Shown piece by piece: positions 25,164 through 61,689 of a DNA stretch of 64,000 nucleotides; position 1 is the stretch's first letter, and the number at the start of each line of letters is the position of its first letter. The DNA comes from Microbulbifer taiwanensis (GTDB taxonomy: Bacteria; Pseudomonadota; Gammaproteobacteria; Pseudomonadales; Cellvibrionaceae): NCBI RefSeq assembly GCF_014904815.1, contig NZ_JACZFR010000028.1:62001-126000 (forward strand). The letters are read 5' to 3'. Position numbers and translations under genes: made by a program. The notes under the pieces were generated by a model, which did no database searches, was not told the DNA's origin, and saw nothing but the letters and a program-made list of their open reading frames with translations.

Positions 25164-25173
25164 CTACAAAATT

Positions 25174-30267: not shown

Positions 30268-30356
30268 GATCTGTCTCCCGTTGATCATCGACGGGAGCAG
30301 AGTAAGGGGGCGGGACTGAATCGAAGCTGAACTCGAGGCTGAATCAAGTGGCAACC

Positions 30357-30368: not shown

Positions 30369-30554
30369 CGACGTCCACTCGCCACAAACGACGGGGGCAA
30401 TCCCGAGCCGCTGCCTGCGCAGGCGCCGGTGCTGCTTCGGGGGCAGGTGGCGCCGCCTCCCCGCCACATTGCGCCGCCGGCCCCGCGGCCGCCCCTGGAA
30501 GCCGATCGACACCGTCTTTCACTTAGGAGCGGGTGACAGTCGGGGCAAAGGTTG

Positions 30555-31919: not shown

Positions 31920-32021
31920 ATTTAGCGGGTCCCGCCCAGGGCAAAACTGAAAGGTGGCGGCATGCTAACAGCGGCGCGCCTATCCCTTATAGTTGCTTTT
32001 GTTATAGTTCTATAAGCGCCA

Positions 32022-32522
32022 CTATTTCACGGCGGCTTCCAGGCTCTCGACCGTCTGCGGTCCTACCAGCGTCCGCAGCCAGCGGCCATCGGCGCCGACT
32101 ATAAACGTTGTCGGCAGCACTTCCGGCTTCTCCTGCCCCCAGCGCCCCGCCGGCTCGGCGATCAGCACCGGGAACTCGATTCCCATTTTTTTTGCCTGCT
32201 CCGCAGTGCGCTCCGCGGGCAGTTGATCGTAATTGATGCCGACGACCATCAAGTCGTCCCTGCCGCGGACGACCTGGTTCAGCTCTGGAATTTCCTCCCG
32301 GCAGGGCTTGCACCACTCGGCCCAGTAATTGACCAGTAAGACCTTGCCACTGATATCTACGGATTTTCCATCGACCGCTAACAGTTGATCGGGGCTGCGG
32401 TCACAGCCGCTTATTGCGGCGACTAACCACAGACAGGCTGCCCACCGTATCGTCCTCGGCTTTCGCCTTGCCACTGGCTGAACCACGCTTGCCACTCCCG
32501 CGTTTGCTTTTGTTTTTGTCAT
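32022..32522 (-). CDS. TlpA/ResA-like thioredoxin-fold lipoprotein
   Basis: 166 residues from ATG at 32520-32522 (AGGGAATAAGG just upstream). The lipobox 'LVAAISGC' predicts lipidation at Cys40 after an unusually long basic leader. The thioredoxin fold follows, with active site 'YWAEWCKPCREEIPEL' (Cys71, Cys74) and the cis-Pro region 'VLPTTFIVGADG'. It is expected to reduce periplasmic disulfides, for example in cytochrome c maturation or for a client of its own. The first 122 bases overlap the 3' end of the YihY gene in another frame, which is more than usual. Confidence 0.85.
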   Translation of the reverse strand: MTKTKANAGVASVVQPVARRKPRTIRWAACLWLVAAISGCDRSPDQLLAVDGKSVDISGKVLLVNYWAEWCKPCREEIPELNQVVRGRDDLMVVGINYDQLPAERTAEQAKKMGIEFPVLIAEPAGRWGQEKPEVLPTTFIVGADGRWLRTLVGPQTVESLEAAVK

Positions 32523-33801: not shown

Positions 33802-33995
33802 GGATATTTCCGTTTTTTTCTTGTGCAGTTGGCGAGTTCAGATCCTGAGACCGGGCAACGTGACAACGCCGATGCGCAGGCGCCGACGCAGCCCCGAAGC
33901 TGTAACAAGGTCCAGAACAACCAGGCCCGACGGGAAATGAACTCTCAAACCTTATTCGGTTAGAATACGCCAAACCTTAACAGGATACCGCCATA

Positions 33996-35322
<1,327 letters not shown>

Positions 35323-35461
35323 AACCCGGGCGCAATTGCGCGAGCTACAGGTCGGTGGCGGCCCTTCGCGTCTGGCATAGGATCTAATTTGCCACTTACG
35401 TCTTGAGCCCACTGACGCCAATTGATTCCAACATGCAAACTGCACCAAGGAGTGTTGAGGT

Positions 35462-43695: not shown

Positions 43696-44604
43696 TCAGA
43701 TCCGGTGGCAGGGTTTGGTTGTGGCGTAGTTGAAAAGCGCTTCGGTGGTAGCGTCCAGCACCGGACTCCAGACAGCGTTCTGGATACCGCTGGCGGCGTG
43801 GGAATTCAGCCCGTAGATACGTCGTCCCGGACCGTTTTTCTCATCCGTTTCAACCCAGGCGCCGCCGCTGGATCCATGTCTCATCGGGTTGTCTTGCATC
43901 AGGATCAGGCCGGCCGTGCGCGTGGACAGGTAGCCGCGCACCGCGTACATAACATGCCCGTGGCCGTAGTTGATCGGGTAGCCGAAGCTGGTCAGGTCAT
44001 CCCCCGCATCTCCGTAGAAGAGTTCCAGTGGGCTGCCGTAGTCGCGCGCGGCGACCAGGAAGGCGTAGTCGTAGACCGGGTCCGGATTTTGCCCGTCGTG
44101 CCACTCGCTACGCACCGTCATTTCCGCAACCTGGAAGACCTCCGAGTCCTCGCCGCCGTAAACCCGCTCGAACAGGAAATTGCTGTTCCAGCCTCCGGAT
44201 TGCGGATCGCGCACACAGTGGGCGGCGGTCAGCAGGATGTTGCCGGCGCCGGCGAACTCGGCGCTACACCAGGACTCATCGCCGTCGGCATCGAGAAACA
44301 TCAGACGCCCGCCGGACTGGAAGGGTGCCCGGCTCAGGTCGGCGACATAGGGGACACCGCTGCCAGGCGTACGGGAGCTGCCGTCGATCTCCAGTTCCGG
44401 CCCCAGCGCGCTGTCCGGCAGCACTGGCATATCGACAGGTTTGGCCCTGGCGCGCCGCTCCGGAGTCCAGAAGTCCGCCGCCTCCTTGGGATTTACAAAG
44501 GTATTCCTGCGGCACTGGTTGTCCGCGGATGCCGGCTCGATATTGCAAGCCACCAGCGCGAACACCGCGGCGGCGCCGTACAGGTATTGATATAATTTAT
44601 TCAC
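43696..44604 (-). CDS. Trypsin-like serine protease, putative lipoprotein
   Basis: 302 residues from GTG at 44602-44604, which has GAGGAG upstream; a longer frame to 44748 lacks an RBS. The N-terminus 'KLYQYLYGAAAVFALVAC' ends in a lipobox at Cys20. The chymotrypsin-fold triad is visible: His129 in 'LLTAAHC', Asp179 in 'PVYDYAFLVA', Ser246 in 'HGSSGGAW', with a Cys pair around the His. Related to V8/Glu-specific trypsin-like proteases of marine bacteria. It is expected at the cell surface or periplasm. First gene of a pair with the Cys-rich lipoprotein. Confidence 0.87.
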   Translation of the reverse strand: MNKLYQYLYGAAAVFALVACNIEPASADNQCRRNTFVNPKEAADFWTPERRARAKPVDMPVLPDSALGPELEIDGSSRTPGSGVPYVADLSRAPFQSGGRLMFLDADGDESWCSAEFAGAGNILLTAAHCVRDPQSGGWNSNFLFERVYGGEDSEVFQVAEMTVRSEWHDGQNPDPVYDYAFLVAARDYGSPLELFYGDAGDDLTSFGYPINYGHGHVMYAVRGYLSTRTAGLILMQDNPMRHGSSGGAWVETDEKNGPGRRIYGLNSHAASGIQNAVWSPVLDATTEALFNYATTKPCHRI

Positions 44605-44874
44605 GAGTATTCTCCTCTGTTTTTTGATAACGGGAACGATCCTTTTCATCCCCGTGACCATGCTAGGCATATCGGTTAAAACGATTAAGCGATTCCGATT
44701 CAACAGGGGAGAAGAAAACGTGCAAAAAGTTGCGCAGCGGAAAAACACAGACGCAGCAAAAAAAATCTTCGATACACGAGCCTGTGTGATTTAAAAAGTG
44801 AAGTTTCCACGCACGGATGTGCGCGGCGTGAGAAAAGCGGAGGGAAGCGTAAGAATGAGAAAGACTGGCCGATA
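44605..44874. other. Intergenic region between protease and HTH gene
   Basis: 270 bases. It must hold the protease promoter; AT-rich parts near 44690-44790 fit, but no confident -35/-10 pair was picked out. No gene seen. Confidence 0.35.
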
Positions 44875-45198
44875 TTATGTATCGTCAGAGATTGTTTCCA
44901 GGAGAGACAACAGCGTTTCCCGCACCTTCTCCGGCAGGCTTCGCATACGCGCCAGCAGCAGGAACTCCCGGTCGCTGACGGCGCGCCCCTTGTGCTGATC
45001 CATATGGCCGCGGCCGCTTAAAAGCCAGTCGAGCGATATGTCCAGGGCGCGGCAAAGCCTGATCGCATTATCGGTAGAGATGGCCCCGCCGCGCCGCCAG
45101 CGGCTGATACAGCTTTCGTTGACCCCAAGCTCCAGTGCCAGCGGAGAGATTTTTTGCACCCCACGCGCGCGCAACACCCGCTCCAGGCGCGCCCCCAT
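44875..45198 (-). CDS. XRE-family helix-turn-helix regulator, last gene of tail-collar operon
   Basis: 107 residues from ATG at 45196-45198 (GGAG nine bases upstream). A GTG at 45318 would add 40 non-HTH residues and overlap the tail-collar gene, but lacks an RBS. The HTH is 'KISPLALELGVNESCISRWRRGGAISTDNAIRLCRALDISLDWLLSGRG', the CI/Cro-like fold, followed by a short helical tail. Its position at the end of the phage-tail-like operon suggests it regulates that operon, like a phage repressor; this is inferred. Confidence 0.72.
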   Translation of the reverse strand: MGARLERVLRARGVQKISPLALELGVNESCISRWRRGGAISTDNAIRLCRALDISLDWLLSGRGHMDQHKGRAVSDREFLLLARMRSLPEKVRETLLSLLETISDDT

Positions 45199-45308
45199 GG
45201 AGCCGCGCTCCGTTGCCCTCGGATTCAGCGGCTGCAGCAAACACAGATGTGCAGATGCAGCAGCACCCTTTTTCGCAACCACTCCCGAATAATTTTCCAC
45301 AGTATTCC

Positions 45309-45929
45309 TCACCGGCACTTGATAATGTAATTCACGTAAATATTGACCGGACGGGTCTCACTGCTGCTACGCGCCGGATCGCCATCGGGCTTGAGCGGTG
45401 ACACACTGTCGGGCAGTGCCGGACCACCGCTGGCAGTGGGTGTCGTGGGCAACTTGACCTTGCCGGCCTGGAACTGCGCCTTGCCGGTGCCGATCGCGGC
45501 CAATTGATAGCCGTGCTGGTGGTCTTGCAGGCTGTCTTCCTGTGTCGACCCCACCCCGGAATAATTTTGCCCTGTCACCGGGGACTTGCGCTCCGTCGCA
45601 TCCGGATCGATGTCGGCGTCGGCGTCGGTACAGCGCAGGAAAAGCCCGCGGTAATCCGGCAGGCAGAAAGTCGCCTCGCCGTCGCCGCCGTAGAGGGTAC
45701 CGATGGCACTGAACAGCATCGGGTAGAGTGTGATCCCCAGCTCGCGCCCATCGCAGAGAAGCCAGCCCCACTCTTCCAGACACAGTGCCGGCTGCTCCGG
45801 CGCCTCGAGATCGTCGCTCTCGAAGGGGGAGCCGAGCTGTCCGGCGTAGGGGCACACTGTCCCCACCGGGACACCGCCGAGCCAGTCCCCGGCAAAGGGC
45901 GGCGGCGGAAACAGTGGTTGCGCGATCAC
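45309..45929 (-). CDS. Phage tail-collar domain protein
   Basis: 206 residues from GTG at 45927-45929. It carries the tail-collar (fibre-tip) pattern: 'VPVGTVCPYAGQLG', 'GWLLCDGRELGITLYPMLFSAIGTLYGGDGEATFCLPDYRGLFLRCTDADADIDPDA', then a Gly/His-rich segment 'QDHQHGYQ' and terminal 'RPVNIYVNYIIKCR'. In phages and in MdpB-like proteins this domain forms fibre tips or adhesion trimers. The start overlaps the upstream 926-aa gene by four bases (GTGA), so the two are translationally coupled. Confidence 0.87.
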   Translation of the reverse strand: MIAQPLFPPPPFAGDWLGGVPVGTVCPYAGQLGSPFESDDLEAPEQPALCLEEWGWLLCDGRELGITLYPMLFSAIGTLYGGDGEATFCLPDYRGLFLRCTDADADIDPDATERKSPVTGQNYSGVGSTQEDSLQDHQHGYQLAAIGTGKAQFQAGKVKLPTTPTASGGPALPDSVSPLKPDGDPARSSSETRPVNIYVNYIIKCR

Positions 45930-48706
45930 GATTCGCCCTCCTTGAAAACAGGCAGCTCGCCGCTGTCCTGCAACACCGTCATTTCCGTCGGCACCACCAG
46001 CTCCCAGCGGTCCGCCGGCGCCTCCCGCGGCGGCTCGCTGTCGGCCTCCTTGAGGGCGTTGACCAGGTTGATGTAGCGGTAGTCGGGCTCATTCTCCCGC
46101 TCCGGGCAGAAGGCGGGCGCCAGCGTATCAACGCCTGGCCAGATCTGCCCGCTGGCGAGAAAGTAGAGCATGCGGTAACTGAACTTGGGCGAGACCGGCA
46201 ACAGCACGCGGCTAAACCCCGCCTGCAGGAAGGCACTGAAGAGCTCGTCCTCGCCGCGGTACCGCTGGCTGATGGCGGTACCCAGGTCGTTTTCCGTCTT
46301 CACGGTAAAGGCGTAGGCCATTTCGTCCCAGGCCAGGGCGCGCTGGAAAAACTGCACATAGCGCTCCTCCCCCAGCGCCAGGTCGCCGCGCTCGCCAGTC
46401 AAGGCTTCTACTTCGCGCAGCAACTGCCGCACTATATTCCGGCGTAGTTCCTCGCGCACTGTTTCGCGCACGCCCAGCTCGGAAGCTTTTTTCCGGTTCC
46501 CGGGCCAGCCGGACAGGGTGTCGTAATAGCGCTGCCTCTGCTGCTCGCAGCCGGCGGCTATGGCCCTGTAGGTGTCCAGTTGCCAGCGTTCCAGGGCCTC
46601 GGCGGTCAGCTCGGCTTTCACCTCGATGGCAACGCTGTAGGCTCCGCAATCGGCAGCCGTCACTACCGCCGCCGGCACCTGCTCGGTTTCACCATCGAGG
46701 TACAGGGGTTCCTCCTCGCCGCCCGGGTACTGGCAGCGTCTCTGGCCAACAGCAATGCTCAGCTGCAGATCATCGCTGCCCGGACCCGGCGACACAGACA
46801 CTTTCGCGCTGCTCGCGCCATAACCCGGCTCCACCGACAGCGACTGCCAGCTGACCGGGTCGCCCGACTGGAAGCTGGCGCTGCTGCGCGACTCCCGCGA
46901 CGGCGGCGGTTGCAGGTCCACAACCTGGTATTCCGCCGCCAGCCTCGCGTAGTAGCTCGGGGATTCGGGATCGGTAGAGATATCCAGGAAGGTCTCGACC
47001 CCGAAATCGACCAGCGGCGGCGGCTCGCGCAGCGATAGGCCGCGCAGGCTGAAGGCACTGGCGATATAGCCCCGCGCCGGTTCGCGCACGAAAAACTCGA
47101 GCACAAAGCACCGTCCCAGGGCGACAGTCCAACATTGGTAGACCTTGTTCACCCAGCGGTAGACGGCGCGCACATTGGCTTCCATCTGGCTGGCGTCGAC
47201 GCGCCGCAGCGTGTGGGACTCGTCCCGGTTGAGGCTGGCACTGCTGCGCTGCCAGTGCACCCGCCGCGCCAGGGAGGACGCGGCGCGCTGGGTCAGCGCG
47301 CGGGCGCTGCATGCGACTTCCTCTGCGGCGACTTTCTGCGGCTGCTCATCCACCGGTTCCACCCTGCCGTCCACGATTACGGTCAATTGCTTTGCGGGCG
47401 GGCCGTACTGGCTCTCATAGTGGTACTGGAAGTTTTCCTTCAGGGTGTTGAGCGTTTCTGCCAGCAGGTCGCGGCGCTGGCCGGCGGATTCGCTGCTGTA
47501 GCTGTCACTGCTCTCCTCCGAGGCCAGTTCCTCCACGCGGGACTCGCGCAGGCTCCTTTGCGACGACTCCTTGTATTCACCGCGCATCACGTTCTCTATC
47601 CCGCTGACCTCGCCCAGCTCGTAGCGACAAAGGCGCTGGCGTACCAGCTCCAGGTCGCCGATCGCATAGGGCACAGGGGCCACGAAGTCCCCGCCGCCCA
47701 GCCCGCCCTGCGCCGGCGGCATCGGGAACAGGGTGCCGGGCAGTACTGTGGTGGCCTCGATGCCCGCCTGCAAACGGGCGGCGGGCCAGGCCGCGGGCTT
47801 GTCCTCGCCGTCGACAATACGCCCGATCAACCCGGCCAGGGCCAGTGTGCGCAGCAGCTGGTCAGCGAGCTGCCGGTTGAAGCCCGGTTGCACCGAGAGG
47901 GCAAAGAGGTTTTGCCAGCAGCGCTGGCTGAGCCTGGCATAGGCCTCGCCCTGCCAGTATTCGGCAATGCTCTCCCAGCCCCCCATATCCAGCGCCGCCT
48001 CGGTGCGCTGCTTGAAGGCGCCCAGACTGGCCGGCGGATCCGCACGAAATTCCATATCCAGGTGCGACAGCTGGTCCATCGGCGCGCCCAGCGCGGCGAT
48101 GTCGCGCAGGTAGCGACCGCTGTAGGGTGGCCTGCCGGAGAGAAAGAGATCTGCCTGTTCCAGCATCGCATCGCGCCCCTCTGCGCGCGCAGCGAGTAGC
48201 TGCCTGTAGAGACTGTCCTCAGGCGCAGACTCGGGATCGTACTGAACAAAGCGGTCGCGCAGTTCCGCCGCGCTGATATCCGGCCACTGGGCCAGGTAAA
48301 GATAGGGAAAAAGGTCCGATTCCAGTGAGCGCTCCACCAGCAAGGCCTCCTCGGAGGCTCGATCGTCTGGCGCTGGCGGTGTTGGCTGCGGCGGGGATTC
48401 CGGAAACAACACCACGTGATCCAAATGGCAGTTGGAGCCGTTGGCGGCATCGGGATAATTGAAATTGTCCACCACCAGCTTTGCCGGCTGCGAATCAAAC
48501 TTTAACACTCCAGTGACGCGAAGCCGGTTGTCTGACGGATCCTCTACGGAAAAGGCCAGTGGGTTTCTCCCGGGCGGCAGTGGCAGGGGTTCCTCGACAA
48601 TGGTGGAGCTCCTCCAGCGCACCTCCACGCGATCGTCTGCAGACCCGATGTACTGCCAGCTAAAAAAGACGGGGCCAATCTGTCGGCGCCCTATGTATTG
48701 GTTCAT
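45926..48706 (-). CDS. Large unclassified 926-aa protein, candidate structural component
   Basis: 926 residues from ATG at 48704-48706 (GAGGAG seven bases upstream; the frame extends further without support). Residues 1-110 look like a beta-sandwich ('YIGRRQIGPVFFSWQYIG', 'LKFDSQPAKLVVDNFNYPD'). A helical middle with 'VPYAIGDLELVRQRLCRYELGEVSGIENVMRGEYKE' is followed by a Ser/Glu-rich spacer and long helices; the last 130 residues close with 'WELVVPTEMTVLQDSGELPVF'. No signal peptide or membrane segment. No named family recognised. Coupling to the tail-collar gene suggests it is the body or baseplate-like partner of that tip protein. Confidence 0.65.
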   Translation of the reverse strand: MNQYIGRRQIGPVFFSWQYIGSADDRVEVRWRSSTIVEEPLPLPPGRNPLAFSVEDPSDNRLRVTGVLKFDSQPAKLVVDNFNYPDAANGSNCHLDHVVLFPESPPQPTPPAPDDRASEEALLVERSLESDLFPYLYLAQWPDISAAELRDRFVQYDPESAPEDSLYRQLLAARAEGRDAMLEQADLFLSGRPPYSGRYLRDIAALGAPMDQLSHLDMEFRADPPASLGAFKQRTEAALDMGGWESIAEYWQGEAYARLSQRCWQNLFALSVQPGFNRQLADQLLRTLALAGLIGRIVDGEDKPAAWPAARLQAGIEATTVLPGTLFPMPPAQGGLGGGDFVAPVPYAIGDLELVRQRLCRYELGEVSGIENVMRGEYKESSQRSLRESRVEELASEESSDSYSSESAGQRRDLLAETLNTLKENFQYHYESQYGPPAKQLTVIVDGRVEPVDEQPQKVAAEEVACSARALTQRAASSLARRVHWQRSSASLNRDESHTLRRVDASQMEANVRAVYRWVNKVYQCWTVALGRCFVLEFFVREPARGYIASAFSLRGLSLREPPPLVDFGVETFLDISTDPESPSYYARLAAEYQVVDLQPPPSRESRSSASFQSGDPVSWQSLSVEPGYGASSAKVSVSPGPGSDDLQLSIAVGQRRCQYPGGEEEPLYLDGETEQVPAAVVTAADCGAYSVAIEVKAELTAEALERWQLDTYRAIAAGCEQQRQRYYDTLSGWPGNRKKASELGVRETVREELRRNIVRQLLREVEALTGERGDLALGEERYVQFFQRALAWDEMAYAFTVKTENDLGTAISQRYRGEDELFSAFLQAGFSRVLLPVSPKFSYRMLYFLASGQIWPGVDTLAPAFCPERENEPDYRYINLVNALKEADSEPPREAPADRWELVVPTEMTVLQDSGELPVFKEGES

Positions 48707-48770
48707 GACCCCACTCCTCAGTATGTATACGGGGAAACCGCCGGCACCCCGGCGCCGGCGGATTTCCCGG

Positions 48771-49379
48771 TCAGGCGACCTCGATATCCCAACCACTCCA
48801 CTGGGAGCCGGTAATTACCGCCGTCTGGCCCTCGAGGATCTCGGTTTCGGTCAGCGATATCTCCGCCTGTACCAGGCGCTGCCCCTTGTAGGTAAACTCG
48901 CTGACAACTGCGAGGTACAGGCTGGAGCGGATATCCTCCATCAGTACGGCACCGGGAGTGATTACCTGCGGCTGGTAGATGTCGTCGTCATCCTGCTGGA
49001 TATGGCCGATAACACCCATGCCGTACCTGTTCTCGACATGAACCTCGTTCAGTACCAGCTCGTTGAAGTTCTGTACCGTCTCGGCACCACTGGCCTGGTG
49101 ATCCTGGGAATCCACCGAGGTCACGACAAAATTCGCGGTCAGCTCGGCAAAATCGATTTGATTGGTGGTGTAGCGGGTAGCTTCCGGGTTGTTCGGGTCC
49201 TTGGAGTAACGCGCAAATACTTTGAAGTCGGAAGGTACAGTGACCACCGCCTCACCACCGGGAGGCGGCTCGGCAATTTTCCAGGCCACCGACTGCAGGG
49301 ACGGGCGCATGATCGGCTTTTTGTAGATGGCGATGCGCGGCAGTTCCGCACTTTCGTTAACAAGGGTAATGGTCGACAT
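48771..49379 (-). CDS. Unclassified 202-aa beta-rich protein, first gene of tail-collar operon
   Basis: 202 residues from ATG at 49377-49379 (AAGGAG eight bases upstream). It starts 'MSTITLVNESAELPRIAIYKKP' and shows alternating beta-strand pattern throughout, with 'VTVPSDFKVFARYSKDP', 'TANFVVTSVDSQDH', 'VLNEVHVENRYGMGVIGHIQQDDDDIYQPQVITPGAV' and 'QAEISLTETEILEGQTAVITGSQWSGWDI'. No signal peptide. It is soluble, without a recognised family. The sigma54-like promoter 85 bases upstream would drive it and the next three genes. Confidence 0.68.
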   Translation of the reverse strand: MSTITLVNESAELPRIAIYKKPIMRPSLQSVAWKIAEPPPGGEAVVTVPSDFKVFARYSKDPNNPEATRYTTNQIDFAELTANFVVTSVDSQDHQASGAETVQNFNELVLNEVHVENRYGMGVIGHIQQDDDDIYQPQVITPGAVLMEDIRSSLYLAVVSEFTYKGQRLVQAEISLTETEILEGQTAVITGSQWSGWDIEVA

Positions 49380-49463
49380 TGGAAAGACTCCTTTTATTGA
49401 ATTGAATCGCAGCACTTTTTTGCCGCGTCCAAGCGGGTAAATCCGGCTCGGCAATCAATACAT

Positions 49464-49480
49464 CTCAAAACCCATGCCAA
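49464..49480 (-). promoter_or_regulatory. Sigma54-like -24/-12 promoter for the tail-collar operon
   Basis: On the minus strand TTGGCATGGGTTTTGAG. The GG and the -12 G have the required spacing; the best element (TTGGCA) is exact and the -12 TTGC reads TTGA. It is 85 bases upstream of the operon's first ATG and beside a sigma54 activator gene, which raises its credibility. A one-base departure at the -12 element keeps confidence moderate. Confidence 0.5.
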
Positions 49481-49536
49481 CTTTAATTCCCATAAAAATC
49501 AATAACTTAGAAAAATTGATAGCGAGCGGGAGCAGT

Positions 49537-49582
49537 GTCGACGGTGTCGGCAGTGATGGCCCCGACACTGCCGACAGTCGAC
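49537..49582. promoter_or_regulatory. Long dyad: candidate activator or repressor binding site
   Basis: Inverted repeat GTCGAC-GG-TGTCGGCAGTG, 10-base loop, CACTGCCGACA-GTCGAC: 11 + 6 matching pairs with a two-base bulge. It lies 57-118 bases upstream of the sigma54-like promoter, the usual distance for an enhancer site, and directly abuts the -35 of the opposite-facing promoter. Confidence 0.65.
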
Positions 49583-49584
49583 GG

Positions 49585-49612
49585 TTGTCGTGGTGGGGGC
49601 GGCAGGTATAAT
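49585..49612 (+). promoter_or_regulatory. Sigma70 promoter for the 254-aa gene
   Basis: -35 TTGTCG (49585-49590), 16-base spacer, -10 TATAAT (49607-49612). It faces right, leaving a ~130-base leader. The dyad ends two bases before the -35, so its binding protein would influence this promoter as well. Confidence 0.6.
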
Positions 49613-49644
49613 CCCCGGTGGGAAAAAAACCTTCCCCTCAGAGC

Positions 49645-49668
49645 CTGTTGAAAATAGCTATTCAACAG
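49645..49668 (+). repeat. Hairpin in leader of 254-aa gene
   Basis: CTGTTGAA (49645-49652), 8-base loop, TTCAACAG (49661-49668), a perfect 8-bp stem in the leader. No T-tract follows (ATTCG comes next); it may stabilise the mRNA or bind a regulator. Confidence 0.45.
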
Positions 49669-49751
49669 TCCAACAAAAACAATTCGAATAAATCCCGTAA
49701 AGGCAGAATAGCGGTATTGCCTCAAGCGCCGGCTACATCAAAGGAACTGCA

Positions 49752-50516
49752 ATGTCTCTGTTTAAATCCCTCGATACCACAGCTCCCGACTACACCCTCA
49801 CGCTCAACTTCAACAGCCAGACGCTGGAATTGGAAGTTCCGGTCGAGGTCATGTCTGTGCTAAAGGGCAGCAACCTTTTACTGCGCTTCAACAACCTGCC
49901 CACTGGCTGGTCGCCGATGGTGGAGTTTCGCAACGGCGGTGGCGATATCATTATGGCCGACGGCCCCTTTGAGCAGATGATCGTCGGCAGGAACCAGGTG
50001 CTGGCCGTCAACGCTCGCTCGGATATCGACCAGTTCCACTTTCGGGCACTGATACAACGGGGCTTCGGCATTCACAGCCACAGTGACACCGCAGTGATGT
50101 TTACCAGATGGCTGCCATTCAAGCTGAACAGCGACTCCCAGCAGGAGCGCCTGCTCAAGATCCGTGTACTGCCGGACGGCGACGGCCTGACGGTGGACAA
50201 GCCGCAAGTGACCATTCGCGGGGGCATGCGGGTACAGTGGGATTTCAGCGAGGTGGCGCAAGACAACCACCAGCCGATGGTCGCCTACGGAAAACCGATG
50301 CTGGAGCAGCAACCCGCCGACAACCAACAGTTCTTCGGCCCTCATGAGAGCTTCGTCTACCGCGGTAATACCTCAGTCGAAGGCAACGGCAACAACGGCA
50401 TCAAGGGGATCTACCGCTACGAGGTCTACCTGCTGGATATTCGCACACGGGCAATAGTGGTTAAGTCCAGTGCTGATCCGCAAACGGACAATGAAGGGGA
50501 TGTATCACTTAAGTAA
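49752..50516 (+). CDS. Unclassified 254-aa beta-rich protein, divergent from the tail operon
   Basis: 254 residues, ATG at 49752 with AAGGAA upstream. Two beta-rich halves are apparent: 'YTLTLNFNSQTLELEVPVEVMSVLKGSNLLLRFNNLP' and 'GLTVDKPQVTIRGGMRVQWDFSEVAQDNH ... YRYEVYLLDIRTRAIVVKSSADPQ'. No signal peptide or hydrophobic segment. The second half has a cupredoxin-like strand order but I see no clear metal ligand set, so no function is claimed. It is divergent from the tail-collar operon and shares its regulatory region, and precedes the convergent kinase gene. Confidence 0.66.
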   Translation: MSLFKSLDTTAPDYTLTLNFNSQTLELEVPVEVMSVLKGSNLLLRFNNLPTGWSPMVEFRNGGGDIIMADGPFEQMIVGRNQVLAVNARSDIDQFHFRALIQRGFGIHSHSDTAVMFTRWLPFKLNSDSQQERLLKIRVLPDGDGLTVDKPQVTIRGGMRVQWDFSEVAQDNHQPMVAYGKPMLEQQPADNQQFFGPHESFVYRGNTSVEGNGNNGIKGIYRYEVYLLDIRTRAIVVKSSADPQTDNEGDVSLK

Positions 50517-50561
50517 AATGAATAATCTAGCTGCGAGCTATAGTATATACATTTTCAACGT

Positions 50562-53039
50562 CTATTCTTTTCCTAGCATCGCAGGAAGGGAGGTGCTGGA
50601 AAAAGCCGGCAGACTAAACCAGCGCTTATCCATACCTCCCTCAATCGCCGCCTGGGCGTTCACCAGGGCCGATTCATTGTCTCCGGCCAGGGCGTAGACC
50701 AGGGATGCCTGGTAGGCAACTTCCGGATCCCCCTCGGACCTCAGCAATGCCATCAGAGTCATCCTGACAGCCTCTCCTTTCATCCCCAGGTGCGCCAGAC
50801 ATTGAGCTTCTACCATTCTCCCGTAAGCGTCAGCGCTACCCGATGCACGTTGCGCATTTAATATCTCGCCGTATAGAGCGAGGGCCGCTTCGCGGTTCCC
50901 CAGGGCCATTTCCACATCTGCAAGATTTAGCATGGCTACCCGATGCCCTGGCTGCAACTCCAGAGCACTGACGAACTTTTCTCTTGCTTCGTCGTACCTC
51001 TCCTTCAGCATCATTGCGAGGCCAAGGTTTACCAGATAACTTCTATGGCGCTTCCTGCTCAGCAGTTTCCCGTATGTAGAAATCGCCAGATCCAGGTCAC
51101 CGTAGAGTAGTTCCACCAGGCCCGACTGCCCCAACACCAAAGTATTCCCCGGCGTTAACTTCAAAGCATCAGCGATATGATTTCTTGCAGTCTTCACGTC
51201 CCCAACACGGATTGCCAGGGAGGTTGCCTTGTATCGCGTACTCCATGACAGGGGAGTTGTGGCAGCAGCCTCTCGCAAAAGCCGATTCGCGGCATCAAGA
51301 TCTCCCTTCATTTCCTCCAGTCTGGCCCTGTCGACCAATATCGAAGGATCTCCCGGCGAAAGTCTCTCATAATCCTGCAGCAAGTTTTCCGCATGTTGCA
51401 TTTCCCCCTGATCCATTGACAGCGTTATCTCCCTCTGGAGGACGACTAACGGGTTCGGATAATACTCACCAAGGTGCCCTAGAACACTTTTCGAGTAGTC
51501 TAAATAGGATCTGTCCTGGGTGTCCGAAAATAAATCGTGAGCCAAATCTAAAGACAGAATTTCACCCGCAGGAAAAAAAGGTGAATTCGACAGCAGATCC
51601 ACCAAATCATCAAATAGTTTTTTCCTGTCACCGACTCCCTGGTTTAGGGCCGAATAGACCTCAACAAATCTATGATAGTTTTCAGTAGATAGAGAAGTGA
51701 ATTTCTGTGAACCCTTTAATTGCGATTCTTCGTAAAGCGCCAATGTCTGGGAAAGAACTGCTTGTGCGCTTTGCTCTATAAATCGTTCAGGAACAGAAAA
51801 CTGAACGTGCTCCAATAAGGCGCCATCGCTCGCCCGCACCCTTTGCAACTGCACATTATCCAGCGGATTTTCCGGCATGTAGCGGATCTGTATCCACTCA
51901 TCGGCACCCGCCAGCCTTGCCAGCTGAGCCGGCCCCGCCTTTTCAACTAGCGGCTCATGGTCAAGTAGCGGCTGCACCGAACCCAACAGGTGCAAGCCAT
52001 TGACCACACTGCTCCAGATCACCGCATCCAGCGCTGTACCCTCTCCCTGCCGGTAGTATTGCGGCTGCGCTAGGAAAACCCGCAGCTGCCGCTCGGAGAC
52101 ACTCGGCTCGGAGATAAAGTAAAAGAGCAACCCGAGCGGAATTGCACAGAAAATCACCCACCAACGCCGGGGCTTCAATCGGGGAAACCCCCACCTCGGC
52201 GGCGCGACCTGTCGCTCGAGCGTGTCGCTACGGAAACGCTTCAGGGTCAGCACCGCCTCGCTGAGTGTCGACAGGCGGCGCTGCGGGTCCTTTTCCAGCA
52301 TTCTCAGCACCATTTCCGACAGTGCCCCCGGCAACCGCCGGCGCAGCATCTCTACCTCCCCCGGCTGGCTGTTCAGCAACGCATTCAGGGTGGCGGCAGT
52401 ATTGTCGGCCCTGAAAGGGCGCTGGCCGGTAAACATTTCGAACAGGACGCAGCCGAAGGAGAAAATATCGCTGCGGCTGTCCAGCGGACGGCCCATCAGC
52501 AGTTCCGGCGACATATAGGAAACTGTGCCGGCCAACTGCTGCAACTGGCCACCGTCCCCGGAAAGGGTCTGCAGTTCATCCGCCATGCGCCAGTGCGCAA
52601 GGCCGAAATCGAGAATTTTCGCCCTCCCGCTGTGATCGACCATGATATTTGCGGGTTTCAGATCCGCGTGGACCACCCCTGACTGGTGGGCATAGTGGAG
52701 GGCTTCGGCGAGTTCCAGCCCGAGGTGGGCGGCGCTCTTCAGTGGTATTTCACCGGCAGCCAACAGCGACGACAGGGTGTTGCCATGGATATACTCCATG
52801 GCGATGCAGGGGCCCTCGGCGATAAATCCGTAGATGGTGACTATGCCGGGATGCTTCAGCGAAGAGGCGACCCTCGCCTCATGGATCAGTCGCTCGACGC
52901 GCCCCTCACCCACAGCCGCGACATACTTGAGAGCCAGGTCGCGCTCGAGCAGCTTGTCATGCGCGCGGTAAACCACACCCATACCGCCACAGCCGATTTT
53001 TTCGACGATCTGATATCCGGCCACACTTGTCGGATGCAA
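50562..53039 (-). CDS. Transmembrane Ser/Thr protein kinase with TPR-like C-terminus
   Basis: 825 residues from TTG at 53037-53039. Kinase domain 1-270: Gly loop 'IGCGGMGVVYRA', Lys38, Glu54, catalytic loop 'HADLKPANIMV' with Asp126, DFG at 144-146, and 'GTVSYMSPELLMGRPLDSRSDIFSFGCVLFEM'. The HRD arginine is Ala125, so this is a non-RD kinase. One membrane segment follows (about 295-310), then a ~500-residue region of helical TPR-like repeats that would lie outside the cytoplasm. It is divergent, at 115 bases, from the FHA/sigma54 activator, a likely substrate through its FHA region. Confidence 0.9.
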   Translation of the reverse strand: MHPTSVAGYQIVEKIGCGGMGVVYRAHDKLLERDLALKYVAAVGEGRVERLIHEARVASSLKHPGIVTIYGFIAEGPCIAMEYIHGNTLSSLLAAGEIPLKSAAHLGLELAEALHYAHQSGVVHADLKPANIMVDHSGRAKILDFGLAHWRMADELQTLSGDGGQLQQLAGTVSYMSPELLMGRPLDSRSDIFSFGCVLFEMFTGQRPFRADNTAATLNALLNSQPGEVEMLRRRLPGALSEMVLRMLEKDPQRRLSTLSEAVLTLKRFRSDTLERQVAPPRWGFPRLKPRRWWVIFCAIPLGLLFYFISEPSVSERQLRVFLAQPQYYRQGEGTALDAVIWSSVVNGLHLLGSVQPLLDHEPLVEKAGPAQLARLAGADEWIQIRYMPENPLDNVQLQRVRASDGALLEHVQFSVPERFIEQSAQAVLSQTLALYEESQLKGSQKFTSLSTENYHRFVEVYSALNQGVGDRKKLFDDLVDLLSNSPFFPAGEILSLDLAHDLFSDTQDRSYLDYSKSVLGHLGEYYPNPLVVLQREITLSMDQGEMQHAENLLQDYERLSPGDPSILVDRARLEEMKGDLDAANRLLREAAATTPLSWSTRYKATSLAIRVGDVKTARNHIADALKLTPGNTLVLGQSGLVELLYGDLDLAISTYGKLLSRKRHRSYLVNLGLAMMLKERYDEAREKFVSALELQPGHRVAMLNLADVEMALGNREAALALYGEILNAQRASGSADAYGRMVEAQCLAHLGMKGEAVRMTLMALLRSEGDPEVAYQASLVYALAGDNESALVNAQAAIEGGMDKRWFSLPAFSSTSLPAMLGKE

Positions 53040-53154
53040 AACCTTCCCCCAAACATCGGATCAACCTGCTTGCGGTGGTGAAAACGCGACTTGGAACAAT
53101 CGAACGACTATATCATAATCGCCGTCCACCAGTTCTCAGGAGGACTGCTGTACC

Positions 53155-54702
53155 ATGGATGAGCACCTGGCATCGGAGGCCGATGAGTGTACGCTGGAGC
53201 CATCTGGCCAATTCCAGTTCGAACACGAAATCCTGCAGCCACAACTGACTATTCTCTGGCACCCGCAGCGCCGCCTTATCGGGGCCCGCGCAGCGGTACT
53301 CTGGGACAGCGCGGGCGAATTCGAAATATCCCGATGGGTGCCGATGTTTCGGCTTGCGGATGAATCCGAATTTTCCCTCGACGACCGGCGCATCTCTCGC
53401 AGCCCGCTGCTGCTAAAGCGGGAACCGAATAGCACCCTCTCGATCCACCCTCCCCTCAGCTCCATGACGCTCGCAGTCAACGGCGCCCCACTCGAAACTG
53501 CAATGACACTATCGAACAAATCTCTGCAGGCCGGGGTGACAATCTGCCTCGGGCGCCGCGTGGGCCTGTACCTGCGCCTGTCGCCACCGCGCCGGGCGGA
53601 AGAACGCGATCATTTGGGGTTGCTCGGCGGCAGCTATCCCATGGCGCAGGTGCGGCGACAGGTCCGCCGGATAGCGGCCACCAATGCCAGTGTCCTGGTC
53701 CGCGGGGAAACCGGTACCGGCAAGGAACTGGTTGCCCGGGCACTCCACCAGTTCAGTCCGCGCAGCGGGCGCGAGATGGTTTCAGTGAATATGGCTACCC
53801 TCGGCGGAGATCTGGCCGCAGCCGAGCTGTTCGGCGCGCGCCAGGGCGCCTATACCGGGGCCCGCGGAGATCGCCCGGGGCTGATCCGCGAGGCGAATGG
53901 CTCTACCCTGTTCCTGGACGAGATTGGCGATGCCCCAGATGCAGTTCAGGTGATGTTATTGCGGGTGCTGGAGGAGGGACGCGTGCGGCCACTGGGAGAC
54001 AGTCGCGACCACCCGGTGGACGTGCGCTACGTTGCCGCCACCGATCGCCCCCTGGAAGCCGGTGCGGAGCGGGCTTTCAACCAGCCGCTGCGGCGCCGGC
54101 TGGAGGCGGCGACAGTCAACATGCCACCCCTGCGCGAGCGGCGCGAAGACTTCGGGGAACTCTTTGCAGCCTTTCTCGCGGAGGCGGAAGTCGAGCGCGG
54201 CCACAGCATCCGGATCACTGCCGACCAGGTCTGCGCACTGGCCGCCAGGCCCTGGCCAGGCAATGTGCGCGAACTGAGGAATTTTGTCACCGGCCTTGCG
54301 ATCAATAGCGATACAGATGGGGAAATTCACTGGAACAGTGAGCTGGCCGCCTACCTGCGCCCCCCGACCGGGGAACCGGCTGCCGCTACTGCGCCGCCGG
54401 CCAGCCGTCGCATCCGCTACCGGGACCCGACCACGGTGAAGGATGCCGAGCTCTTGCGGGCCCTGGACGAAAGCGGCTGGCGGGTGATGCCCGCCGCCAA
54501 GGCCCTGGGCGTGTCGCGCACCTCCATGTATGCGCTGATCAAGCAGAGCAGGCAGGTGCGCGCCGCAGAAAAAATTCCCACAGAGGAAATACTGGAAGTC
54601 ATGGAGCAAAAGGCGGATATGGATAGCTGGGCCGCCCGGTTAAAGACCCCGCGCGAGGCGCTTAAGCGGCGTATTAACGAATTGGAACAGGAAAGCGCTT
54701 AA
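53155..54702 (+). CDS. Sigma54-dependent activator with degenerate FHA domain
   Basis: 515 residues, ATG at 53155 (AGGAGG upstream). Residues ~30-145 form an FHA-like beta domain ('RRISRSPLLL' as the phosphopeptide loop). The AAA+ domain follows: Walker A GETGTGKE at 184-191, sigma54-contact loop GAYTGA at 231-236 (a functional variant of GAFTGA), Walker B 'GSTLFLDEIGD', and 'RPWPGNVREL'. A C-terminal Fis-type HTH ('AAKALGVSRTSMYALIKQS') and a charged tail end the protein. It should activate sigma54 promoters, probably the one at 49464-49480, under control of the neighbouring kinase. Confidence 0.93.
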   Translation: MDEHLASEADECTLEPSGQFQFEHEILQPQLTILWHPQRRLIGARAAVLWDSAGEFEISRWVPMFRLADESEFSLDDRRISRSPLLLKREPNSTLSIHPPLSSMTLAVNGAPLETAMTLSNKSLQAGVTICLGRRVGLYLRLSPPRRAEERDHLGLLGGSYPMAQVRRQVRRIAATNASVLVRGETGTGKELVARALHQFSPRSGREMVSVNMATLGGDLAAAELFGARQGAYTGARGDRPGLIREANGSTLFLDEIGDAPDAVQVMLLRVLEEGRVRPLGDSRDHPVDVRYVAATDRPLEAGAERAFNQPLRRRLEAATVNMPPLRERREDFGELFAAFLAEAEVERGHSIRITADQVCALAARPWPGNVRELRNFVTGLAINSDTDGEIHWNSELAAYLRPPTGEPAAATAPPASRRIRYRDPTTVKDAELLRALDESGWRVMPAAKALGVSRTSMYALIKQSRQVRAAEKIPTEEILEVMEQKADMDSWAARLKTPREALKRRINELEQESA

Positions 54703-57880: not shown

Positions 57881-59587
57881 TCAAAGTGCCACTTCCAGTG
57901 CACGGGCAGGTGCGACCCGGTTGCGCCCCTGTTGTTTGGCTTCGTAGAGTTTTCGGTCGGCCTCGCCTACCAGCTCGTTCAGCAGGAGCTGGGAGTCTCG
58001 CTCGGCCGCGCCGAGGCTGATGGAAATTGAGAGGGTATTTGCCCCGGCGACCATCTTGCGGCCGGCGACCGCCCCGCGCAGGCGCTCGGCAAACAGGCAG
58101 GCCTGGGACAGGGTGGTCTCCGGCAACAGCACCACGAACTCCTCTCCTCCCCAGCGTGCCACCCTGTCGCCCTCGCGACAACTTTTGGCGAGCAACTCCC
58201 CCATCTCTACCAGCACCCCGTCACCGACCTGGTGGCCGTAGCGGTCGTTGACCGATTTGAAGTGGTCTATATCCAGTACAATCACACTGAGCGGTCGGGC
58301 GTGGCGCACAGCGGTGCTCCAGATTCCCGCCGCATCCTCGTAAAAGGCACGCCGGTTACACAACCCAGTCAGCGCATCGATGCGGGAAAGTCGCTCCGCC
58401 TTCCTGAGGGCATCCTCCTGGGATCGCACCTGTCTGGCGAGAGCCAGGGACAGCAGCGTGGCCTCGAGGGCCATACCTACCTCGACGCCGTGATAAGTCA
58501 GGGCCGTCATGGGTATCACTCCCCTGACCGAAAGGGCTGTGGAGGCGACGCCCAACATGCTGCAGATAGCGGCACCGAGGAAATACCGGCCCTCGCGCTG
58601 GCCGTACCGGATCGAGAGCACACCGAGACAGACCATCGCAGCGGAGAAAAGTGTGACAAAATTAAAGGCGAGCAGTGCCGCATCTACATGGCTCCCCAAC
58701 CAGATAAAGTGCGCCATCAGCATCAGCGCTGCGGCGCACAGGGCGATCACCCAGCGCCTTACTCCCGGCGCACGCTTGTGGAGCTGCAGGAAACGGCTCG
58801 CAATCAGGAAACCACAGCAGCCGTAAACCACCATCAAAACAAGGATCACAAAACGCTGGAATGCCAACTGGTCCGGCCACCACCAGCTGAATCCGTGACC
58901 ACTGTAGGCGAGGCACATGGCGATAAAGCTGCCCAGGTAGAGCGCGTAGTAGAGGTAACTGCGGGAGCGGAAGCCCAGGAACAACATCAGGTTGTAACAA
59001 ATCAGAGCCAACAGGTAGCCGAACAGCAGGCTGTAACCAAATTGGACCTTGCGCTCGCTGGCCTCGCTCTGCGCGGGTGAACGCAGGTGGGTCGCCAACA
59101 CAAATGGATCCGCAGTCTGGGCGCGAATAAACAGGTGACTGCTTCCCTGCGGCAATAGCAGTGGCAGCTGATAGCCCACACCCGCCACCAGTTCCGGAGT
59201 CGCCGCATGGGCATCGCCCGTTTTCCAGCTGCGGATTACTCGGCCTTCCCGCACTATGTATACGTGCAGGTGGTCCATCCAGGTCTTGCCGAGCGTCAGA
59301 ACCTGCCGCGAAGCCCGGCCCCGGTCGTTTATAATTTCCAGGTGCATCCACACCGGATCAGCGCCTATACCGTGACTGGCAATGGCATAGCGCCCGGGAC
59401 TGAATTGGCCACGTTGCCAGGCGCTGTAGGCCTCACGAAATTGCAGCGGCCCGCCCTTTTCGAGCAGAAATTCCGCGCGCTTGCCCAATGGCCCATTTCG
59501 GTCGCTGGAGAGGAACAGGGGTTCCGCCAGCGCTGTACCATAGGTCGCCAGAAGGAAACAGGCCGCGAGCAGTAAGCGGATATTCAT
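57881..59587 (-). CDS. Diguanylate cyclase, DISMED2-7TM-GGDEF (paralogue 2)
   Basis: 568 residues from ATG at 59585-59587 (AGGTGG upstream), overlapping the stop of paralogue 3 by four bases (ATGA). Same architecture: signal 'LLLAACFLLATYGTALAEP', periplasmic domain ('SDRNGPLGKRAEFLLEKGGPLQF ... VWMHLEIINDRGRASRQVLTLGKTWMDHLHVYIVREGRV'), seven membrane helices, and GGDEF with 'RWGGEEFVVLLPETTLSQACLFAERLRGAV' plus RxxD 'CREGD'. Translationally coupled to paralogue 3. Confidence 0.93.
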   Translation of the reverse strand: MNIRLLLAACFLLATYGTALAEPLFLSSDRNGPLGKRAEFLLEKGGPLQFREAYSAWQRGQFSPGRYAIASHGIGADPVWMHLEIINDRGRASRQVLTLGKTWMDHLHVYIVREGRVIRSWKTGDAHAATPELVAGVGYQLPLLLPQGSSHLFIRAQTADPFVLATHLRSPAQSEASERKVQFGYSLLFGYLLALICYNLMLFLGFRSRSYLYYALYLGSFIAMCLAYSGHGFSWWWPDQLAFQRFVILVLMVVYGCCGFLIASRFLQLHKRAPGVRRWVIALCAAALMLMAHFIWLGSHVDAALLAFNFVTLFSAAMVCLGVLSIRYGQREGRYFLGAAICSMLGVASTALSVRGVIPMTALTYHGVEVGMALEATLLSLALARQVRSQEDALRKAERLSRIDALTGLCNRRAFYEDAAGIWSTAVRHARPLSVIVLDIDHFKSVNDRYGHQVGDGVLVEMGELLAKSCREGDRVARWGGEEFVVLLPETTLSQACLFAERLRGAVAGRKMVAGANTLSISISLGAAERDSQLLLNELVGEADRKLYEAKQQGRNRVAPARALEVAL

Positions 59588-61401
59588 GCGACCACCTGCT
59601 CGGCCACCGGCGGCACTATCCGATTGCGGCCACAGCGCTTGGCATCGTACAGTCTCTGATCCGCGGCATCGACCAGATCGTTCAGGGTGATTTCGGATTG
59701 CAGCTGGGCCGCGCCGAGACTCACCGTCAACGGTGGGCCCTGGAAACCCGCCGCAATCCGATTGCACTCAATCTCTCTCCGGATACGCTCCCCGAATACC
59801 GTCGCCTGCGCCAGGTCGGTTTCCGGCAACAGCAGCACAAACTCCTCGCCGCCCCAGCGCGACAGGATATCCCCCTCGCGACAACTCTGCGTCAACAGCT
59901 TTGCCACTCTCTCTAAAATCCGATCACCGCACTCGTGGCCGAAGCGATCGTTGAACTGTTTGAAAAAGTCGATATCCAGCAAGAGCAAACTCATGGGCCT
60001 GCCGTGGCGCACTGCGGTACTCCACAGGGCCGCGGCGTCGGTAATGAATGCACGGCGATTTAACAGGCCTGTCAGGCCGTCGATTCGCGCCAAGCGCTCC
60101 GCCCGAAACCTGGCCCGTTTCTGCTGGCGCATGCGGCTGCCCAGTGCCAGGGATAACAGGATCGCCTCCAGCATCATCCCAATTTCAACGGCACCGATGG
60201 TCCATTCATTGGCAGTCACCAGGCCCAGTGCACAGAGAAGGCCTATCGAAAGCCCCAGCATGCTGCACAGCGCTGCGGGCAGGAAAAAATGTCCCACAGT
60301 GCGGTCGCGCCTGCAGGCAAAAACACCGAGAGAGACCATGCCCAGCGCAAAAACCGCAAAAGTGCCGAAAGCGAGATAGACGGCGGCGCGCACAAATTCC
60401 GCGGCAATGAATACCGCCATCGACACCATGACCAGCAGTGACAGGCCCCCTATCCATCGCCTGAGGCTGGGGGCATAGTCCTGTAACTGCAGAAAGCGCG
60501 AGGCGAATGCAAAACCGGCGCAGGCGTAAAAAATCATTGCCGCAAAGAGACCATTGCGCTGAAAGCCGGTCTGCTGAGGCCACCACCACATGAAACCGTG
60601 CCCGGTATACACCAGGCTGAGCACGACAAAACTCAGTACATAGAGTGCATAGTAGAGGTGAGCGCGCTCGCGCAGTCCTCTAAACAGCATCAGGTTGTAA
60701 ATCGCAAAGGCGAGCAGGAAACCGTAAAGCGCACCGTAGCGATAACGGTATCCCAATTCGGCAGCTTCGAGATCCCCCGTTGTCAACAGGGATACCGGCA
60801 ACATCAGCGCTTCGGGGGCATAGGCCCGCACATAGAGCTCGTTGCGCCCGGGCGCCAGCCGGACAGGAAACACATAACCCACCGCCGGCACCAGATAGCC
60901 GGCGCCCGGGCGGGCGTCGCCCCCTCTCCAGCTCTGCAGCAGACGGCCGTCGTGAACCAGGTAGACATCCAGGCTATCGAGCCAGGGCATACCGATAAGG
61001 AGGCGGTACGCCAGCGGATTGCCGGAGGGGTTAGTCAGTTCCAGGTGCATCCATGCGGGCGGCGCGGCTATCCCGAAACCTGCAGTGGTGCGCCCCTGCA
61101 AACGGAAGTTACCGCGCTGCAGGGCGCGCTGCGCACCGGCCAGATCGAGTGTCGTCCCTCTTTCCACCAGATAGCTGGCCCTGGCGCCGAGAGGGCCAGT
61201 GCTGGTACCGCTGAGGAGAAATCCCCGGCTGTCACCGGCGTCTGTGCCAGCAGAGACCGCTGCGCCAACCGAGCACGGCAACAGTATCGCCGCCAGCAGC
61301 AGCCAGGCCGACAACGCGAAACAGCGATATGACCCGCAGGGGTGAAACCGGCGGGAGAGACGGAAAACACTGCGATATCCATTCGCAACCTGGGTATACA
61401 A
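59584..61401 (-). CDS. Diguanylate cyclase, DISMED2-7TM-GGDEF (paralogue 3)
   Basis: About 605 residues if translation begins at TTG 61399-61401 (GAGAGG upstream); an ATG at 61545 would place 48 extra residues before the signal segment and has no RBS. It has a signal ('SAWLLLAAILLPCSVGAAV'), DISMED2-type domain ('TSTGPLGARASYLVERGTTLDLAGAQRALQRGNFR ... AWMHLELTNPSGNPLAYRLLIGMPWLDSLDVYLV'), 7TM, and GGDEF 'RWGGEEFVLLLPETDLAQATVFGERIRREIE' with RxxD 'CREGD'. First gene of the coupled pair with paralogue 2. Confidence 0.92.
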   Translation of the reverse strand: MYTQVANGYRSVFRLSRRFHPCGSYRCFALSAWLLLAAILLPCSVGAAVSAGTDAGDSRGFLLSGTSTGPLGARASYLVERGTTLDLAGAQRALQRGNFRLQGRTTAGFGIAAPPAWMHLELTNPSGNPLAYRLLIGMPWLDSLDVYLVHDGRLLQSWRGGDARPGAGYLVPAVGYVFPVRLAPGRNELYVRAYAPEALMLPVSLLTTGDLEAAELGYRYRYGALYGFLLAFAIYNLMLFRGLRERAHLYYALYVLSFVVLSLVYTGHGFMWWWPQQTGFQRNGLFAAMIFYACAGFAFASRFLQLQDYAPSLRRWIGGLSLLVMVSMAVFIAAEFVRAAVYLAFGTFAVFALGMVSLGVFACRRDRTVGHFFLPAALCSMLGLSIGLLCALGLVTANEWTIGAVEIGMMLEAILLSLALGSRMRQQKRARFRAERLARIDGLTGLLNRRAFITDAAALWSTAVRHGRPMSLLLLDIDFFKQFNDRFGHECGDRILERVAKLLTQSCREGDILSRWGGEEFVLLLPETDLAQATVFGERIRREIECNRIAAGFQGPPLTVSLGAAQLQSEITLNDLVDAADQRLYDAKRCGRNRIVPPVAEQVVA

Positions 61402-61689
61402 GTCGGGAAACCTCTCAGTCGGGCCCGTTGTAATTGGAGGAATTGCCAGACCCGATATCCGCTGCAGCAAAGTCGCTGGTGACTCAATTTCTATTATTGG
61501 TATCCATGCTCTGACGGGCACATCCATATACTGCCCGGTTCGCATTAGCTATTAGTGAGTGTAATTCTCGGTTCGAAAACCGGGTAGAAAGTTGGCACCA
61601 GATTCAACCTTCTGATTGGAAAATCGGGCGGAGCACTGCTATTTCGCCCAACCCGAAATAACGCTGGCTGCACCGCTATCCCGAAAGGC

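Follow-up and report, generated by a model that had tools for sequence, protein, structure and literature searches.

What is made by an operon that pairs a phage tail-collar gene with a large protein of no recognised family, and is it switched by the membrane kinase and the sigma54-type activator encoded next to it? The question is raised by a 64,000-nucleotide stretch of Microbulbifer taiwanensis DNA (the window; NZ_JACZFR010000028.1, positions 62,001 to 126,000), which belongs to contig C91 of a 4.8-Mb host genome (G000) of the genus Microbulbifer. A reading of the letters alone (the original prediction) had proposed a sigma54-switched product with a fibre-tip domain. The analysis described here indicates that the operon and the regulators probably share a switch, as proposed in that first reading, but that the first reading of the product is too narrow. 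The best-supported result is that the 926-aa protein of the operon belongs to a family, widespread and as yet unnamed, whose neighbours change from locus to locus, and that the locus described here falls in the collar branch of this family. Function, export and toxicity of the products are inferred. The seven genes of the locus are as follows:

44875..45318, minus strand: XRE/CI-type helix-turn-helix (HTH) regulator (XRE), 147 aa (Pfam)
45309..45929, minus strand: collar-domain protein (COLLAR), 206 aa, GTG start (Pfam Collar)
45926..48706, minus strand: 926-aa protein (BIG), ATG start, family core at about residues 345-926
48771..49379, minus strand: 202-aa protein (B202), ATG start, all-beta in a low-confidence model
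49752..50516, plus strand: 254-aa soluble protein (B254) of no known family, divergent from the operon
50562..53039, minus strand: transmembrane Ser/Thr kinase (KIN), 825 aa, TTG start (open reading frame (ORF) call, Pfam, hydropathy)
53155..54702, plus strand: activator (ACT), 515 aa (ORF call, Pfam, motifs)

All seven genes were recovered by ORF calling at these coordinates, with families assigned by profile scans, and the predicted genes thus exist where they had been placed. In the minus-strand operon the order is B202, BIG, COLLAR, XRE; a gap of 64 bases separates B202 from BIG, whereas BIG and COLLAR overlap by 4 bp and COLLAR and XRE by 10 bases. KIN (minus) and ACT (plus) stand head to head. 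COLLAR carries the Pfam Collar domain PF07484 (E 3.2e-18, 65.9 bits against a cut-off of 24) and XRE the Phage_CI_repr and HTH_3 families; the collar, XRE, TPR kinase and sigma54-activator identities given earlier all have Pfam or motif support. Likewise, the 926-aa, 202-aa and 254-aa proteins, described earlier as belonging to no recognised family, have none above cut-off in the libraries tried: B202 has no Pfam, PHROGs or NCBIfam match, and for BIG and B254 the best Pfam hits lie far below the cut-off (CYTH E 0.012, Nudix_hydro E 0.091). PADLOC gave no family at E ≤ 0.01 for eight proteins including BIG, COLLAR, B202 and B254 and not including KIN, ACT and XRE.

BIG belongs to a widespread family

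The C-terminal two thirds of BIG define a family that extends across many bacterial phyla and into the archaea. The window BIG has no family above cut-off in Pfam or NCBIfam, no match in PHROGs or PADLOC, no credible solved relative by sequence and no tblastn match in 50,697 phage records. Among plasmids, tblastn matched 11 records, which include those of an archaeon, actinobacteria, alphaproteobacteria, a gammaproteobacterium and Bacteroidota. A search of the genome_contigs collection gave 435 pattern stretches, of which 363 were confirmed and 80 kept; the kept set includes Cyanobacteria, Bacteroidota, Actinomycetota, Chloroflexota, Pseudomonadota, Acidobacteria, Verrucomicrobia and two archaea, with part of it consisting of contigs of metagenome-assembled genomes (MAGs) whose assignment may be wrong (the identical L075 and L076 are filed under two phyla). 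Distribution is patchy, as matches occur in seven of 369 class genomes, the window's own included. In 57 aligned members, the columns E371, Y516, P562, P602 and W708 are invariant. A locus of Flavobacterium humi carries a tandem pair of BIG genes (L079, 4637-11983).

The AlphaFold2 model of BIG (mean predicted local distance difference test score, pLDDT, 82.2) contains two strands of 29-30 residues, and residues 603-701 form a jelly-roll domain in this model. An alternating (amphipathic) hairpin pattern exceeds z = 1 in 44 of the 52 BIG rows scored, and the window member reaches z 1.56. Beta-barrel pore-forming proteins, with which the BIG family might be compared, insert an amphipathic beta hairpin into membranes.

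Partners behind BIG differ between loci

A set of 86 BIG loci was compared, with the duplicates L021, L022 and L089 excluded and ORFs called mechanically. Where BIG exceeds 600 aa, a same-strand ORF lies within 200 bp downstream in 72 of 85 loci; upstream, this is so for 33 of 82. The downstream partners fall into many clusters, among them COLLAR, patatin-like, PT-TG, HET-C-like and LodA proteins. Close partners scoring above the Pfam cut-off are Patatin (2e-24; L028), LodA_N with LodA_C (9.7e-61 for LodA_N; L077) and PT-TG (4.8e-8; L035). All six members of the HET-C-like cluster contain HxxxDxxxH, which is part of the Tox-HET-C pattern in the portion of the toxin survey drawn on here (PMC3482391).

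Partner labels, taken from the first two downstream ORFs, were placed on a quick BIG tree of 87 rows, in which several long branches were flagged, three of them COLLAR (L014, L126, L024). The COLLAR label (11 rows) requires one change against a shuffled mean of 10.5, and its group has a support of 99 in the Shimodaira-Hasegawa-like approximate likelihood ratio test (SH-aLRT). The patatin label (8 rows) requires six changes against a mean of 7.8, a value as low in 6 of 500 shuffles; PT-TG (7 rows) requires six against 6.8 (93 of 500) and the HET-C-like label (4 rows) three against 3.9 (27 of 500). One 13-row group (support 91) holds L020, L052 and L058 with HET-C-like, PT-TG and patatin labels. 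To judge from these sequences, the patatin, PT-TG and HET-C-like partners are scattered over the BIG tree as if exchanged.

This arrangement resembles the polymorphic toxin systems, as far as these are described in the sections of PMC3482391 used here, in having a carrier-like conserved protein with changing partners, including PT-TG and HET-C-like types, and a wide, patchy distribution. It differs from them in that the toxin there is a fused C-terminal domain, whereas the partners of BIG are separate ORFs (COLLAR in the window, others elsewhere), and in that BIG has no known trafficking domain.

The collar lineage

COLLAR lies directly behind BIG in 10 of the 86 loci, and also in G200. The ten loci are from four Microbulbifer, Mitsuaria, a Sphingomonadaceae MAG, two cyanobacteria, Chitinophaga and Photobacterium. 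Thus the fibre-tip domain of the original prediction is confirmed in COLLAR, but it marks one branch only, and most loci of the BIG family have other partners. COLLAR shares its Collar domain with phage short tail fibre and tail collar proteins (PF07484; PHROG 523, 1858), and differs from them in sitting behind BIG, a protein without a match in phage records.

Upstream of BIG, the collar loci vary. A small beta protein, N206, which is related to B202 (hhalign), directly precedes BIG in Chitinophaga, Mitsuaria and the Sphingomonadaceae MAG; in the cyanobacterial collar loci, this place is taken by other genes. G323 carries a BIG gene with a different partner, and a B202 homologue (30%) is encoded divergently from it. 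Mitsuaria also encodes a kinase and an unambiguous FHA protein (FHA 3.2e-13), at a distance of 4-7 kb downstream of COLLAR. Beside one cyanobacterial BIG-COLLAR pair, ORFs that by eye resemble an anti-sigma kinase, a response regulator with a phosphatase and a STAS protein were seen (L023, 11506-14198).

Conservation of the locus in Microbulbifer

ACT (E ≤ 1e-90) and B254 (E ≤ 0.001) were sought in 48 genomes of the genus. ACT was found in five and B254 in six, namely the five ACT genomes and G060, where the match is a fragment at 9e-4. A separate BIG search covered 58 genomes, 37 of them of the genus including the window's own, and left out nine of the 48; it gave matches in five genomes, which are the window's, three at 58-63% identity and G020 at 27%. 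ACT, KIN, B254, BIG, COLLAR and XRE are syntenic in three further Microbulbifer species (tblastn identities 56-71%), so that four of the five ACT genomes carry BIG, COLLAR and XRE in one order with ACT, KIN and B254. The fifth, G067, has ACT-KIN-B254-X206, with ACT and KIN in the same direction.

The slot in front of BIG is occupied differently. In the three syntenic relatives, tblastn finds no match to B202, and X206 (206 aa) and Y168 (168 aa) stand in its place. Y168 lies in front of BIG in L017 (7681-8187), L018 (7833-8339) and L019 (8513-9022) and was not seen in the window's slot. Its D..ExK pattern, kept in three of three, is presumably like that of PD-(D/E)XK nucleases, at the level of the motif.

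A conserved control region precedes the small beta gene

Two candidate control elements lie between B254 and B202:

49465..49480, minus strand: sigma54-like promoter box TTGGCATGGGTTTTGA, 101 bp before the B202 start codon, with GA as the -12 part
49536..49576: putative upstream activating sequence, in which TGTCGG half-sites spaced by 9 bp are opposed by a CCGAC half-site in inverted orientation

Across all five genomes with ACT, the DNA from B254 to the small beta gene can be aligned. The box TTGGCAT-N4-TTTGA is present in each of them, starting 79-105 bases before the start codon, and its pattern occurs one or two times per genome. Counted from the box, TGTCGG stands at -96/-95 and -87/-86 in all five (and at -78 in three), and the inverted CCGAC half-site between -60 and -75, again in all five. 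Behind the box lies B202 in the window genome but X206 in the other four; the control region therefore outlasts the gene that it precedes.

A search for a pair of TGTCGG at 9-bp spacing, with CCGACA no more than 60 bases away, gave one match in the window; in 3.8 million strand-bases of loci longer than 15 kb it gave 10. All ten matches are in Microbulbifer loci (two each in L017, L018, L125 and L021, one each in L019 and L022); L021 and L022 are second copies of the L018 and L019 regions, without which seven matches are left. A single 15-base unit (up to two mismatches) occurs 44-58 times per genome, against 13-29 for a reversed control, and only the arrangement of sites is specific because the single unit is common genome-wide. 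The conserved box scores 12.0 of 15.2, whereas the best sigma54-type score in the B202-BIG gap is 9.7. Together with the synteny, the kept control region supports shared control of the locus.

Activator, kinase and other machines of the host

ACT is a sigma54 enhancer-binding activator: it has an AAA+ domain (Pfam Sigma54_activat, 3e-51) with Walker motifs (GETGTGK, LFLDE), a GAFTGA-type loop (GAYTGA) and a Fis-type HTH (HTH_8, 1.4e-4, at 21.9 bits just under the 22-bit cut-off). KIN is a Hanks-type Ser/Thr kinase (Pkinase, 3.2e-49, kinase domain at residues 9-258) with the K, D and DFG motifs (LALK, HADLKPANI, DFG). Residues 293-311 are its one clear hydrophobic stretch by hydropathy, and TPR repeats lie C-terminal of it.

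A membrane Ser/Thr kinase beside an FHA-like protein (a likeness seen by eye) is shared with the PpkA-Fha threonine phosphorylation control of the type VI secretion system (T6SS), as outlined in the excerpt of PMC10482370 used here, but the FHA-like part is here on the sigma54 activator. As predicted, secretion-system genes are lacking: a Pfam scan of 12 window proteins, including all seven of the locus, gave no T6SS family (sheath, baseplate, membrane complex) and no sheath, tube, baseplate or AAA ATPase of an extracellular contractile injection system (eCIS). The host genome carries an eCIS-like cluster on contig C115 instead (about 94559-113600; L157, L158), with two neighbouring sheath matches, Phage_base_V, Baseplate_J and an AAA ATPase with a WHD domain, and contig C44 has three VipB (T6SS sheath) matches close together (20887-36665).

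Other features of the window

Adjoining XRE, a minus-strand gene (43696-44748) encodes a trypsin-like protein (Trypsin_2 E 7.8e-6, just below cut-off) with a hydrophobic stretch at 52-70, and none was seen at the equivalent position in the three syntenic relatives. Elsewhere in the window, also on the minus strand, there are a gene for a 2137-aa RHS-repeat/SpvB-type protein (7244-13657; RHS_repeat 1.9e-31, SpvB 1.5e-8), where local GC falls to 0.44, and genes for a pair of adjacent GGDEF proteins with 7TMR-DISM sensor domains (57881-61545).

Proposed function and alternative explanations

The explanation that we favour, tentatively and at somewhat less than an even chance, is that a kinase- and sigma54-controlled operon makes B202, BIG and COLLAR, where BIG would be the conserved half of a putative two-gene conflict module and the collar branch a fixed, binding-type version of that module. 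The outward TPR half of KIN may sense an envelope signal, and KIN would then phosphorylate ACT, or a partner read by the FHA-like region of ACT. Given the conservation of the TGTCGG/CCGAC sites, ACT may bind there and could open the sigma54-like promoter 60-96 bp downstream. B202, BIG, COLLAR and XRE would be made together, as suggested by gene order and overlap. The product may be soluble and consist of B202 as the small beta protein, BIG as a large carrier, and the collar-domain protein. BIG would carry, anchor or insert, and the next gene would supply an exchangeable enzymatic or toxic partner; in the collar lineage this partner appears to be fixed as COLLAR, most likely a binder of a target such as a receptor or sugar. 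The changing part here would be the variable upstream slot, with B202 in the window and X206 plus the D..ExK protein in the sister species. The product might leave the cell by lysis or another machine, or it might act inside.

Several results weigh against this explanation. A Pfam scan covered 15 partners in two sets of six and nine, the latter picked by eye; none of the six and five of the nine scored above cut-off, and 10 of the 15 have no family. The SIR2_2 (3e-10; L015) and Amino_oxidase (4.5e-39; L085) proteins are looser neighbours and not firm partners, because they lie 606 and 284 bp behind BIG. The labels on the tree derive from blastp clusters with one or few tested members, with 32 of the 87 rows labelled 'other', and COLLAR itself is not exchanged, as it forms a single group. 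The BIG model has no Foldseek match under 1e-3 in PDB or BFVD, the VIA-align rows cover only the jelly roll (about 590-715), and members of the collar lineage show the hairpin pattern weakly (the eight that were scored have z values of -0.22 to 1.56). At the promoter, the -12 element is GA in all five genomes. Usual sigma54 promoters have GG at -24 and GC at -12. The score of the box is also unexceptional, since 24 positions of the window reach 12.2. In ACT, the AAA+ domain and the Fis-type HTH of the original prediction stand, whereas its 'degenerate FHA' is a reading of the N-terminal stretch by eye, as Pfam reports no FHA family there up to E 0.1. Finally, the genes can occur apart. G067 has no BIG match genome-wide, and neither COLLAR nor XRE was matched in the 20 kb that were read, so that the regulators and beta proteins can occur separately from BIG-COLLAR-XRE; BIG-COLLAR pairs of other lineages have no activator seen nearby, and outside Microbulbifer a kinase and an FHA protein close to a collar locus were found in Mitsuaria only. 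The original prediction held that the genes act together and named homologues scattered without each other as evidence to the contrary. Joint occurrence of regulators and tail operon in four of five ACT genomes and of the control region in five of five agrees with the prediction, but the separate homologues in G067 and in BIG-COLLAR loci elsewhere are in part the evidence that it named.

Separability would be expected if KIN and ACT controlled only B254 and the small beta protein, with BIG-COLLAR-XRE placed behind their promoter by chance. G067 and the position of the conserved box before the small beta gene rather than BIG agree with such a pair of neighbours, but the B202-BIG gap is only 64 bases in the window and its best score is below that of the box, and the arrangement is kept in four genomes that are about 56-63% identical in BIG; we regard this as the least probable of the alternatives. 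Unlikely, but the most probable among them, is a surface adhesin or matrix particle, in which BIG and the beta proteins form a scaffold with COLLAR as a sugar- or receptor-binding tip and without a toxic role. The Collar domain, the fixation of COLLAR in its lineage, the jelly roll in BIG and the weak membrane-hairpin pattern of the collar lineage are all in its favour. A signal-peptide-like start is absent by hydropathy from B202, BIG, COLLAR and B254, however, which counts against an adhesin as well as against the conflict module, and the pairing of BIG relatives with patatin-like, LodA and PT-TG proteins does not suit an adhesin.

BIG-COLLAR might instead serve a contractile injector as cargo or accessory, being packed into an eCIS-like or T6SS machine encoded elsewhere in the genome or mounted on its tip. 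The C115 cluster and the VipB matches on C44 would provide such machines, and in Photobacterium BIG-COLLAR adjoins an eCIS_core (PF13699) protein and an AAA ATPase that shares 46% identity with the C115 ATPase over 233 residues. As this link is one locus, it is a lead only; comparison of the C115 ORFs, from which the first sheath frame was missing, with the neighbourhood ORFs of the remaining BIG loci gave matches to ABC-type and signalling proteins only, and no BIG or COLLAR match was found among the C115 ORFs picked. An injector role is quite unlikely. Intracellular defence or self-killing, in which BIG acts as sensor or forms a pore and cooperates with an effector enzyme against phage inside the producing cell, is judged slightly less probable again. 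The patatin fold is also used by anti-phage systems, and the patatin-like partners, the SIR2-like protein 606 bp behind one BIG gene and the patchy distribution would be in keeping with defence. Control by a sigma54 activator would be unusual for anti-phage systems, and the PADLOC scan found no match among its eight proteins, which did not include the patatin and SIR2 partners.

The two-gene conflict module with the collar branch as its fixed, binding-type version remains our preferred explanation. In a broader form, which we consider doubtful, BIG would define a type of conflict system not described before, made up of two genes and present in bacteria and archaea alike. Its conserved oligomeric carrier would insert a beta hairpin into membranes and would deliver or position a partner that is freely exchanged and has a gene of its own, be it a patatin-like lipase, a HET-C-like protein, a lysine oxidase or a pre-toxin. 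Collar loci would then be a specialised branch with a fixed receptor-binding tip and, in Microbulbifer, a dedicated kinase/sigma54 switch. If this is true, a family without a Pfam, NCBIfam, PHROGs or PADLOC model would be the half that many small enzyme or toxin loci share, and BIG would give a handle on many neighbouring proteins now called hypothetical. The Microbulbifer locus is a good test case: with a kinase and an activator of its own and with a control region that is well conserved, it could allow the system to be induced and the product to be isolated.

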